A DNA stretch of 24,878 bases from a virus. Below, in pieces: positions 13,601 through 16,016 of this stretch. A program made the position numbers and the translations under genes. Where the stretch lies: positions 1 through 24,878 of the IMG/VR virus record IMGVR_UViG_3300044618_002870, one strand, 5' to 3'. The first letter of the stretch is position 1; each line of letters begins with the position of its first letter. The notes under the pieces are model-generated. The model saw only the letters and a program-made list of their open reading frames with translations, ran no database searches and had not been told where the DNA came from.

Positions 13601-14362
13601 ATGTCTTTTCCATATTTGATTCAGGGTTCCAACATTGTGATTGTGATTGGGACTAATTCACACACGATCAATCGGGCGCATATTGCCTACGATAAGATTG
13701 TAGAGGCCATCAAGGCCAACGACTGGCAGCAGGTTCAGGACCTGGTTGAACCCAAGAAGATCGTGCTCAACTACGGTGCTGGCAATATCAGCATCCAGGG
13801 CGACAAGATGTTCTGGAAGGATCAGGAGTTCCACAATGTTTTGGCTCTGCGCCTGATCAAGATGTTCCAGGAAGGCTTCCCCATTGAGCCCATGATTAAC
13901 TTCATGGAGAACCTTATGCAGAACCCCAGCAAGCGAGCTGTGACTGAGCTGTACGGTTTCCTGGAAAAGGGCCAGCTGCCTATTACTTCCGACGGACACT
14001 TCTTGGCTTACAAGAAAGTTCGCGAAGACTACAAGGATGTGTACAGCGGTACTTTCGACAACAGCGTGGGCAAGACGGTGGAGATGGAACGCAACCAGGT
14101 GGATGACGACAAGGATCGCACCTGCAGCACTGGCTTGCACTTCTGCAGTCAGGATTATCTGAATCACTTTAGTGGCGAACGGGTGATGATCCTCAAGATC
14201 AATCCTCGCGATGTGGTTTCGATTCCCGCTGACTACGGCGACACCAAGGGCCGCTGCTGCCGGTACGAAGTGATTGGCGAGCTGGGCGTGGATCCGGCTG
14301 AAGCGTTCACTGCGGCAGTGCAGGAAAATGCCAACACCGAAGCGGAAGGTCAGGGCAACTAA
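13601..14362 (+). CDS. rIIB: rIIB-like protein
   Basis: Excellent ribosome site AGAGGAG (13589-13595). The 253-aa product has the rIIB C-terminal core: TSDGHFLAYKKV, then DVYSGTFDNSVGKTVEM, then RNQVDDDKDRTCSTGLHF, then ILKINPRDVVSIPADYGD and the final KGRCCRYEVIGEL. rIIB is the partner of rIIA in T4 and works as part of the same exclusion-resistance system. The T4 protein is 312 aa; this one is shorter in the N-terminal region. Codons are strongly enriched in C- and G-ending forms (CTG, AAG, GTG), suggesting high expression compared with neighbours. Confidence 0.9.
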   Translation: MSFPYLIQGSNIVIVIGTNSHTINRAHIAYDKIVEAIKANDWQQVQDLVEPKKIVLNYGAGNISIQGDKMFWKDQEFHNVLALRLIKMFQEGFPIEPMINFMENLMQNPSKRAVTELYGFLEKGQLPITSDGHFLAYKKVREDYKDVYSGTFDNSVGKTVEMERNQVDDDKDRTCSTGLHFCSQDYLNHFSGERVMILKINPRDVVSIPADYGDTKGRCCRYEVIGELGVDPAEAFTAAVQENANTEAEGQGN

Positions 14363-14364
14363 CA

Positions 14365-14739
14365 ATGCCTCAAGCTGAAGTAATCACTCAGCTGGAACCG
14401 AACGAAATCTTTGTGTTCGGTTCCAATACGGCAGGGCGGCATGGTGCAGGCGCCGCCCTGCAGGCACATCGCCAATGGGGTGCTGAGTTGGGAGTAGGCA
14501 AGGGGTTAACCGGACAGTGTTATGCTTTCCCCACACTTAACGGAAGGTTGGATCAACTCACTTGGGAGGAACTTGCAGCATCCGTAATCAAGCTGTACGA
14601 GTTTTGTTACCAAAATCCTCAATTGACGTTTTTGCTGACCAAAGTGGGTTGCGGGCTAGCTGATTATCCTGAGGCTTATATCCGAGCTTTGTTTCATGCT
14701 CCGCCTCCCAACTTGATTTTGCCACTGGATTGGCAATAA
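14365..14739 (+). CDS. Macro-like phage non-structural protein (A1S_2505-like), 124 aa
   Basis: Starts 2 nt after rIIB. Residues 14-31 read EIFVFGSNTAGRHGAGAA, followed by GVGKGLTGQCYAFPT and a C-terminal TKVGCGLADYP. This resembles the small phage protein family often labelled A1S_2505, whose N-terminal loop looks like the ADP-ribose-binding loop of macro domains (a Gly-rich GxGxA loop after an FVxGSN strand). Functions of macro proteins include ADP-ribose or nucleotide-derivative binding, which would fit counter-defence or NAD-related roles, but no activity is established for this family to my knowledge. It is the last gene before the tRNA. Confidence 0.65.
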   Translation: MPQAEVITQLEPNEIFVFGSNTAGRHGAGAALQAHRQWGAELGVGKGLTGQCYAFPTLNGRLDQLTWEELAASVIKLYEFCYQNPQLTFLLTKVGCGLADYPEAYIRALFHAPPPNLILPLDWQ

Positions 14740-14749
14740 AATTTAAAGT

Positions 14750-14823
14750 GCGCCCGAAGCTGTAGGGTGTAGCAGGGCCTCTAAAACCCCGGGACGTGGG
14801 TTCGAGTCCCACCGGGCGCACCA
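14750..14823 (+). tRNA. Putative amber-decoding tRNA (anticodon CUA) with encoded CCA
   Basis: Cloverleaf by hand: acceptor GCGCCCG (14750-14756) with CGGGCGC (14813-14819), discriminator A, encoded CCA (14821-14823). D stem GCTG/TAGC (14759-14762, 14770-14773). T stem GTGGG/CCCAC (14796-14800, 14808-14812) with loop TTCGAGT. The anticodon arm is imperfect: GGG (14775-14777) pairs CCC (14787-14789), flanked by C-A and A-C mismatches and closed by C14773-G14791 if the D stem gives it up. The loop centre is CUA (14781-14783), preceded by the invariant U and followed by A, with a 5-nt variable loop. Readings with anticodon UCU or UAA break the stem or lose U33. The antisense ORF here is the well-known artefact produced by tRNA genes. 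Amino acid identity cannot be told. Confidence 0.7.
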
Positions 14824-14832
14824 ACTATTTTT

Positions 14833-15030
14833 ATGTATGATTTATCAAGCTATCATGGCTGTGTAACTGAATGGAATAAATGGTTCGCATGGTACCCTGT
14901 CACTACTATTTCTAAAAAGCGTGTGTGGTTAGAATGGTGTTATAAACGAACAGTATTTGAATGGTCTTGGGAAGGGTTAAAAATTGATAAATATCAATAC
15001 GCTAACATTTTTGATATACTAGGAGAATAA
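14833..15030 (+). CDS. Small Trp-rich hypothetical protein, 65 aa
   Basis: The ATG is 10 nt past the tRNA CCA end and has no ribosome site, so it may be translated poorly or from a tRNA-processed mRNA. The product has eight Trp residues: WNKWFAWYPVTT, then RVWLEWCYKRTVFEWSWEG, then YQYANIFDILG. The WxxWFAWxPV...VWLExxYxR pattern is one I associate with small uncharacterised phage proteins. The last part (D-K-Y-Q-Y-A-N-I-F) resembles the ending (N-E-Q-Y-A-T-M-F) of the two small ORFs further downstream, suggesting a distant relation. The TAA stop lies within the ribosome-site region of the next gene. Confidence 0.6.
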   Translation: MYDLSSYHGCVTEWNKWFAWYPVTTISKKRVWLEWCYKRTVFEWSWEGLKIDKYQYANIFDILGE

Positions 15031-15031
15031 T

Positions 15032-15619
15032 ATGACGTAGATTACCGAACTACTTGCAAATGACCTGATTTTTCATTTCAACAAGAAACATTTAGAAGAC
15101 CCAACTATCCCAATGTGGACCATCAAGGCACGTGGGCGTTCTTATTATGTTAACCACGTCTCTTGCGAAATGCCCTGGAGCACAAAAGAAACACCTGACT
15201 CCAATCACACCAAGGGCAGCATCAAAATTCGCAAATGTGTGTTGCGTATTGATCAAGATAATTGTGCAACAATTACCAAACCTACCTCTAATGACATTGC
15301 TCGTCTCAAGTATAAAAAACCGCCCATCAGAGTTTTGTATGGCGCCTTGTATGCAGACAGTGTGAATCGAGCCGTTGAAAATCATCAGCTCAAACAGGGC
15401 AAGATCCTGCTGGTTAAAGGCATTTGCGGCAACAACTTTTATATCAGTGAATTCTACAAGGATACGGATATAACGCTGCTGACACTAACTTTACCATCTT
15501 ATGCCATGCGAATTTTGAACCCTTACGAACAATACTATCGTTTGTATGATGAGACCGAAGATGATGAGATTTGGGAGATTGAGGAGTACGAAGACGATGA
15601 ATCAGACGATGCCGAGTAA
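15032..15619 (+). CDS. Conserved-type phage protein with in-frame TAG at codon 3
   Basis: AGGAG (15021-15025) sits 6 nt before an ATG at 15032, an ideal start, but the third codon is TAG (15038-15040). The frame then stays open to TAA at 15617. Codons 4-28 read as normal protein (ITELLANDLIFHFNKKHLE...) and run straight into MWTIKARG at 15113, the first ATG after the amber, which has no ribosome site. The 195-codon product has a basic/aromatic N-terminal half (SYYVNHVSCEMPWSTKETPD, HTKGSIKIRKCVLRID), and ends in a very acidic tail (DETEDDEIWEIEEYEDDES). No function is recognised. Production of full-length protein would need amber suppression, and a CUA tRNA lies 215 nt upstream. Alternatives are sequencing error or a genuine null allele. 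Confidence 0.65.
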
Positions 15620-15827
15620 AGTGCCTAATATAAGGCACAAACACCAAATTGTAAAATTTGATGCATACAGTTGGGAAGGCAAGCTGGGTGAAGTTTCTGA
15701 ATGGTGTTGTGAAAATTTTGCTGATAAACAATCATGGTGGATAGACTGGCAAGGAATAAGTAGCCGCAAAGAATGGTTCATAAGCACTGATAATGAACAA
15801 TACGCTACCATGTTTGCATTGAGATAG
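15597..15827 (+). CDS. Small Trp-rich protein A of a paralogous pair, ends in TAG
   Basis: I prefer the ATG at 15597 because AGGAG (15582-15586) lies 10 nt upstream; ATG 15609 is the alternative. It overlaps the 3' end of the preceding gene by 23 nt. The product (76 aa) ends in WCCENFADKQSWWIDWQG, then FISTDNEQYATMFALR. This matches the ORF that follows (WCVLTFDQHEQWLIDI, then LITSNERYATMFVLR), so the two are tandem paralogues. Its TAG is followed in frame by AGC-TAG-CAG-TAG and then the ATG of the paralogue, with no other stop type between. A hairpin GTGCCT/AGGCAC lies at 15621-15638 inside the coding region. No function is recognised. Confidence 0.6.
   Translation: MNQTMPSKVPNIRHKHQIVKFDAYSWEGKLGEVSEWCCENFADKQSWWIDWQGISSRKEWFISTDNEQYATMFALR
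15621..15638 (+). repeat. Small hairpin early in the coding region of protein A
   Basis: GTGCCT (15621-15626), loop AATATA, AGGCAC (15633-15638): six perfect pairs immediately after the TAA of the preceding gene and 24 nt into the overlapping next gene. No T-run follows, so not a terminator; it could slow ribosomes or affect initiation. Confidence 0.4.
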
Positions 15828-15839
15828 AGCTAGCAGTAG

Positions 15840-16016
15840 ATGCAAAAATATATAATCTCATCCAATAAATCCAACTCAGTAATCGAAATAGTTGATTGGT
15901 GTGTGTTAACTTTTGATCAGCATGAACAATGGCTAATTGATATTGTAAACGGTTGTCCAACACTGATAACCAGTAATGAGCGGTATGCTACTATGTTTGT
16001 ATTGAGATGGGGTTGA
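15840..16016 (+). CDS. Small protein B, paralogue of the preceding ORF, 58 aa
   Basis: ATG at 15840, TGA at 16014-16016. The conserved ending ERYATMFVLRWG and the WCVLTFDQHEQWLIDI block align with the upstream ORF, so this is a real gene and not noise. No ribosome site precedes it; the bases before the ATG are three alternating TAG codons in the same frame as the upstream paralogue. It could be made by reinitiation after the last TAG, which directly abuts the ATG, or by amber readthrough as the C-terminal half of a tandem fusion. Function is unknown. Confidence 0.6.
   Translation: MQKYIISSNKSNSVIEIVDWCVLTFDQHEQWLIDIVNGCPTLITSNERYATMFVLRWG

Follow-up and report, generated by a model that had tools for sequence, protein, structure and literature searches.

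Evidence for a conserved suppressor-tRNA gate at a stop codon near the start of two gene families of large phages

From sequence comparison we conclude that many large phages carry what appears to be a conserved natural suppressor-tRNA gate, in which a stop near codon 3 of a gene would be read by a tRNA of the phage itself. One such pair lies in the window, by which we mean the whole 24,878-base stretch of IMG/VR virus record IMGVR_UViG_3300044618_002870, a T4-like phage with the standard code whose genes include rIIA, rIIB and a clamp loader, together with GroES-like and PhoH-like genes that we take to be such from their translations. There, 215 nt separate a tRNA with a CUA anticodon from a gene reading ATG ACG TAG (Table 1), and we consider it probable (about 0.8) that the two form a stop-codon gate opened by the phage tRNA. 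As judged by comparison among relatives, the stop is conserved, has coding sequence on both sides, is linked to a tRNA, is matched by the anticodon of that tRNA and occurs in two target families only; its decoding by the phage tRNA is strongly supported at this level.

Table 1. Features of the putatively gated region, in positions of the window
Feature	Position	Strand	Description	Source
tRNA gene	14750-14823	+	CUA anticodon at 14781-14783; CCA encoded	ARAGORN, Rfam
Small ORF between the tRNA and the gated gene	14833-15030	+	65 codons; weak PHROG 14828 match	
Shine-Dalgarno sequence AGGAG	15021-15025	+	6 nt before the ATG	Sequence
Putative amber-gated gene, FHFNKK family	15032-15619	+	ATG (15032-15034), ACG, TAG, then 192 codons; terminator TAA (15617-15619)	
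TAG (amber) at codon 3, putative gate	15038-15040	+	Kept in 80 of 100 distinct homologues	
Coding stretch from the amber to the first internal ATG (15113)	15041-15112	+	Purifying selection; no in-frame ATG, GTG or TTG	

The tRNA was the only one that ARAGORN found in the window, and it scored 40.1 bits with the Rfam tRNA model against a gathering score of 29, confirming the first-pass annotation, which had placed a CUA-anticodon tRNA upstream of a gene with TAG at codon 3. The label 'Pyl' reflects the CUA anticodon alone. The tRNA is an ordinary cloverleaf with three G-C pairs in the anticodon stem and positions 27:43 and 31:39 open, and it was identical in four other contigs of the same phage (L002-L005). 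An Arg(UCU) anticodon lying one base out of register was rejected, since the CUA register pairs helix 28-30 in nearly every scaffold; relatives L006, L013 and L087 have well-paired anticodon stems in this register.

The small ORF between the tRNA and the gated gene is not required in relatives. It resembles the motif of an ORF at 15546-16016 of the window, which ends in TAG at about 15827 and, if TAG were sense, would continue into a second copy of that motif (EQYATMFALR ... ERYATMFVLRWG); the repeat may be a tandem duplication or another case of read-through. The FHFNKK protein of the window gave no significant match in Pfam, PHROG or the PDB sequences. Its AlphaFold model had a mean pLDDT of 89, a fold search of the PDB with this model also gave no significant match, and no FHFNKK homologues were found in GTDB genome contigs.

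Protein searches of IMG/VR returned about 300 FHFNKK relatives, and the best 80 per wider scan were read. The amber of the 80 distinct homologues that retain it lay within codons 2 to 7, and in 68 of them it stood at codon 3. The same phage was present in five other metagenome contigs (L002-L006), all with ATG ACG TAG, while diverged homologues (43-67% identical) started with ATG GCA TAG, ATG TCA CAA GCC TAG, ATG ACA TAG, ATG TCC TAG or ATG AAG TAG, in each case with a CUA tRNA no more than about 2 kb away. An assembly or sequencing error at the TAG was rejected, since the codon is the same in five independent contigs and recurs in about 80 diverged homologues. The suggestion that a single recent mutation had created the amber did not hold either, the codon being conserved across hundreds of large phages. 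The base after the amber was always a purine (A in 74 and G in 6 of the 80), and the following codon was mostly ATT.

Over the 15 codons FHF...PM, which lie between the amber and the first internal Met, pN/pS was 0.11 in the 80 distinct sequences; for the five codons preceding them it was 0.44. The low value after the amber agrees with the earlier impression that these codons look like protein, and the stretch is therefore taken to be translated. A start at the internal Met of 15113, which had been named as the alternative for the homologues, was rejected given the purifying selection upstream of this Met and its absence from one homologue (L007).

A CUA tRNA on the same strand was found in the flank of 72 of the 80 amber-bearing FHFNKK genes, at a median distance of 604 nt (69 within 3 kb; 62 upstream), and in no case was one found on the opposite strand only. 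For the remaining eight, no CUA tRNA was recognised in the stretch examined, and contig ends and misses by ARAGORN account for some of these. In L123, L126, L130 and L144, ARAGORN missed CUA tRNA-like genes that lie directly upstream of the gated gene and whose T-loops are degenerate (e.g., GATCGTT). In six whole genomes a single CUA tRNA lay close to the gated gene, namely G002 (43 tRNAs, 361 kb), G008 (32, 344 kb), RHph_I1_18 (24, 171 kb), GAP32, BF and ME3; a combined Fisher test over the six gave p of about 4e-8, a value not corrected for relatedness.

The scaffolds of the CUA tRNAs differ widely among relatives. Contig L006 is more than 99% identical to the window apart from a replacement of about 1 kb (L006 4776-5738), which takes out window positions 14341-14778, and with them the 5' half of the tRNA, and supplies an intact CUA tRNA of another sequence, leaving the amber unchanged. 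This stretch has the appearance of a mobile element that targets tRNA genes and supplies a substitute. On contigs L002-L162, the 31:39 pair was open in 32 of 54 CUA tRNAs, compared with 11 of 384 other tRNAs, and pairs 28-30 were nearly always kept in the CUA tRNAs. The contrast was weaker in the set collected around the second gene family described below, with 31:39 paired in 45 of 65 CUA tRNAs versus 150 of 165 others, and we record the open pair without taking it to define these tRNAs; it possibly tunes suppression. In L025, L027 and L028, which share rIIB with the window, ARAGORN predicted tmRNA genes (permuted flag).

In the FHFNKK clade that lacks the amber, the stop is found instead in the gene just upstream, which begins M-T-H-TAG, M-K-TAG or M-K-N-TAG and encodes a protein of PTH2 (peptidyl-tRNA hydrolase 2) fold. 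This was so for 18 of the 20 distinct amber-less FHFNKK sequences, the two exceptions being L102 and L245, the latter truncated at its start where the contig stops. The amber was present in 62 of 65 distinct IMG/VR homologues of the PTH2 gene (in L372 at codon 9), and in some phages both adjacent genes carry it (L014, L225-L236). The main partner family of the tRNA is this PTH2-type protein, which is absent from the window. In one clade a TATCTTTG motif, which we take to resemble a Bacteroidota promoter, precedes the tRNA, and the overlapping genes in the order tRNA, PTH2, FHFNKK point to a single transcript.

The assignment to the PTH2 fold rests on several comparisons. With Pfam PF01981 (cut-off 23), four of the five amber-gated phage proteins scanned scored 27.7-34.0 bits and the fifth (L091) only 15.8, below the cut-off, while the protein of phage Phosso reached 73.8 bits. 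Profile comparison matched the phage protein to archaeal PTH2 structures, and a Foldseek search with the predicted fold gave 2zv3 at E 7e-8 and 3erj at TM 0.80. In alignment A4 and in the HMMER alignments, the active-site region of the gated proteins read RxDLxxGYQxxQxxHA in place of RxDLxMGKGKxxAQxxHA, GYQ replacing GKGK of the canonical catalytic lysine region. The active-site GK is missing, and hydrolase activity is therefore uncertain; we refer to a PTH2-fold protein. According to the alignment and the predicted fold, the first strand of the gated proteins precedes any internal start. The FHFNKK and PTH2 families are unrelated by profile comparison (hhalign of A2 against A4, probability 0.7%), and both conserve the context M-[S/A/T/K]-TAG-I-[E/N].

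In an unbiased screen of all loci collected to that point, every ATG followed by one to five codons, a stop and at least 45 open codons was taken, and the downstream peptides were clustered for each stop. TAG, TAA and TGA occurred with equal frequency, about 750 times each. Large conserved clusters nevertheless numbered just two (82 and 31 loci), both with TAG, and these were the FHFNKK and PTH2 families; no other cluster, whatever its stop, exceeded 6 loci.

The same gate was found in cultured phages, namely Serratia BF (gene unannotated), Cronobacter GAP32, Pectobacterium CBB, Xanthomonas XbC2, Erwinia Kaldavass, Acinetobacter ME3 (CUA tRNA upstream), Salmonella Arash and Tenacibaculum pT24 (annotated tRNA-Sup), as well as in huge metagenomic phages of 462, 595 and 735 kb. 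In Erwinia SNUABM relatives, where the gene is also unannotated, the protein after the stop was 100% identical, the start itself being out of view. Annotators have placed the starts of GAP32 and CBB internally, and a gate at the N-terminus would explain why such genes go unannotated or receive wrong starts. The 735-kb genome (L469, LR756501) has a PTH2 gene with an amber at codon 3 and another TAG in the same frame roughly 30 codons later, which suggests wider TAG recoding in that phage.

Phage XacN1 has two CUA suppressor tRNAs and phage Summit has an orphan one, in both cases with the target reported as not found (PMC5852040, PMC9022506). In XacN1, an in-frame ATG AAG TAG precedes ORF364, a longer protein with a PTH2-type domain, and the sequence ILQHGLSV is conserved after the amber in XacN1 and RAS14, in the latter upstream of the annotated start; ORF364 is a candidate target of the XacN1 tRNAs. 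The Summit relative DLP_5 has a CUA tRNA, and no ATG-started gene with an N-terminal amber was found in it as a target. Klebsiella phage K64-1 has a PTH2 gene free of amber and no CUA tRNA in its 346 kb. A CUA tRNA with no amber found in either gene was seen in L102/G006, L374, L376 and L383. L102/G006 has an amber-free FHFNKK gene with the CUA tRNA 6.7 kb away and an amber-free PTH2 gene with canonical GKGK; it is apparently a lineage that lost the gate.

The suppressor tRNA of Agrobacterium phage Atu_ph07 has the opal anticodon UCA (PMC6102473), and this was the only suppressor tRNA in the whole 490-kb genome. Its PTH2 gene starts ATG ATT GGC GAA CAC TTT TGA, whereas in the related Phosso a CUA tRNA goes with a PTH2 gene that starts ATG AAG TAT TAG. 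Judged from these sequences, which are the most telling of the comparisons, stop and anticodon change together (TAG with CUA, TGA with UCA), one opal genome being represented. The opal tRNA lies about 230 kb from its target, and linkage is therefore not required. In Mycobacterium phages Myrna and Cane17 (L393, L394), [A/G]TG TAG GTG stands before the PTH2 gene and a CUA tRNA lies 0.5-0.6 kb downstream of it; the start is ambiguous in both, since the GTG that follows the stop is better spaced from the Shine-Dalgarno sequence.

Taken together, stop conservation, tRNA linkage, the co-variation of TAG/CUA and TGA/UCA and the restriction to two target families strongly support the earlier proposal of a local suppressor tRNA/amber-target switch in a standard-code phage. 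The local pair is real and no isolated case, the phenomenon being much larger than had been reported.

On the proposed mechanism, ribosomes would reach the UAG after only two amino acids. Without charged phage CUA tRNA, they would terminate or the short peptidyl-tRNA would drop off, and no protein would result; once the linked tRNA had been transcribed, matured and charged, an amino acid would be inserted at the UAG and the complete protein made. Output would need two products of one phage region, as in an AND gate or coherent feed-forward loop, and this requirement would filter leaky early transcription and delay the protein. A stop at codon 3 would cause the least waste and leave no partial protein. 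Charging of the tRNA, the amino acid inserted, the timing in infection, late on the earlier proposal, and the biochemical role of the gated proteins are points that we infer. The gated PTH2-fold and FHFNKK proteins, one or both and often neighbours, would act on tRNA or translation and could feed back on tRNA supply. In E. coli, peptidyl-tRNA often drops off this early in elongation and is recycled by peptidyl-tRNA hydrolase (PMC10192219), which makes a PTH2-like gated product suggestive. More tentatively, and with our own expectation leaning somewhat against it, large phages of several bacterial phyla might share a natural coherent feed-forward loop with feedback, in which nothing but the phage's own suppressor opens an N-terminal stop and the gated proteins have peptidyl- or aminoacyl-tRNA as their substrate, the suppressor perhaps included, giving a self-limiting translational clock. 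Of the features expected of the feed-forward class, an amber near the start and a linked cognate suppressor tRNA are present, and the co-variation of stop and anticodon supports indirectly a dependence of the output on that tRNA.

Among other readings, the stop might serve as a meter of termination, like the in-frame UGA of prfB, with protein made when RF1 (or RF2) is in short supply and the tRNA no more than a competitor that sets the threshold. Its position right after the start, a point at which both termination and drop-off of peptidyl-tRNA respond sensitively, would suit such a sensor, as would a PTH2-like product, given that early drop-off is recycled by PTH in E. coli (PMC10192219). A pure sensor, however, would need no tRNA, yet a CUA tRNA is mostly linked, and the stop is TGA where the tRNA is UCA; we find this reading unlikely. 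Two-sense-codon ORFs are classic drop-off minigenes, as in lambda bar, and ATG-x-TAG resembles them. It could accordingly be functional in itself, the downstream protein being made by re-initiation at an internal start, which is where GAP32 and CBB have theirs annotated. The purifying selection between stop and internal Met (pN/pS 0.11) is not what a lambda bar-type minigene would display, the first PTH2 strand lies before any internal start, the stretch in the window has no in-frame ATG, GTG or TTG, and the co-variation of stop and anticodon is not predicted; such a minigene is thus very improbable.

Global reassignment of the amber, with the gated genes merely containing one of many reassigned codons, has precedents in code-15 phages with CUA tRNAs (PMC9523058, PMC11210395), and LR756501 has its extra internal TAG. 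TAG nevertheless terminates 5 of 32 window genes (picked by eye), about 5-10% of genes overall and 8-11% in five complete or large relatives, and a screen for internal read-through gave no excess of conserved TAG over TAA or TGA, as code 15 would have, and only shadow-ORF clusters. With TAG an ordinary terminator and no internal excess, global recoding is therefore discounted and we give it hardly any weight. We rate equally low the idea that the codon is kept for the chemistry of a special residue at position 3 and not for control: the M-[S/A/T/K]-TAG-I-[E/N] context shared by two unrelated families speaks for it, but the stop varies in position from codon 2 to 10, and L091, L102 and L159 have no amber codon at all. 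A dedicated synthetase is also unlikely, because the tRNA scaffolds are very diverse. Against the tRNA-opened gate itself counts the finding that back-up stops were not enriched after genes ending in TAG, because a strong suppressor should select for them. The genomes with a CUA tRNA and no amber in either gene, and the eight ambers with no CUA tRNA recognised nearby, also weigh against it.

A suppressor-tRNA gate has likenesses in known systems. In code-15 gut phages (crAss-like, Lak), a phage CUA tRNA likewise decodes UAG while the host keeps the standard code; those phages have reassigned UAG throughout many late genes, whereas here TAG still ends genes as usual and the conserved target is a single gene or a pair of neighbours, with the amber at codons 2-10, usually 3. 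The orphan CUA tRNAs of XacN1 and Summit are the same kind of tRNA in standard-code phages. The pyrrolysine system also has a dedicated amber-decoding tRNA with few target genes, but the phage scaffolds resemble standard tRNAs and the amber is N-terminal rather than at a catalytic residue; no pylS-like gene was noticed among the genes viewed. In prfB, too, an early in-frame stop decides the output of a translation-related protein, by frameshifting at a UGA instead of by a tRNA. With PF01981 the second gated family has fold and sequence in common, the GK element being absent from the phage proteins. The closest architecture is that of the leak dampener of Ho et al. (2020), in which a suppressor tRNA and a gene with an amber directly after its start codon are under the same regulator, and which its authors called the first control system to employ such tRNAs (PMC7969014); that device was engineered in E. 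coli, while the phage gate would be natural and conserved. No earlier description of such a gate was found in open-access full texts, and one may exist elsewhere.

The gate would offer a job for the orphan stop-reading tRNAs of standard-code phages, whose targets were formerly reported as unfound. It points to a gene-specific, tRNA-controlled switch in cultured phages (GAP32, BF, CBB, ME3, Arash, Phosso, Atu_ph07, XacN1 and pT24), where it is therefore directly testable, and it suggests that a circuit which synthetic biologists designed to dampen leaky expression is also in natural use.
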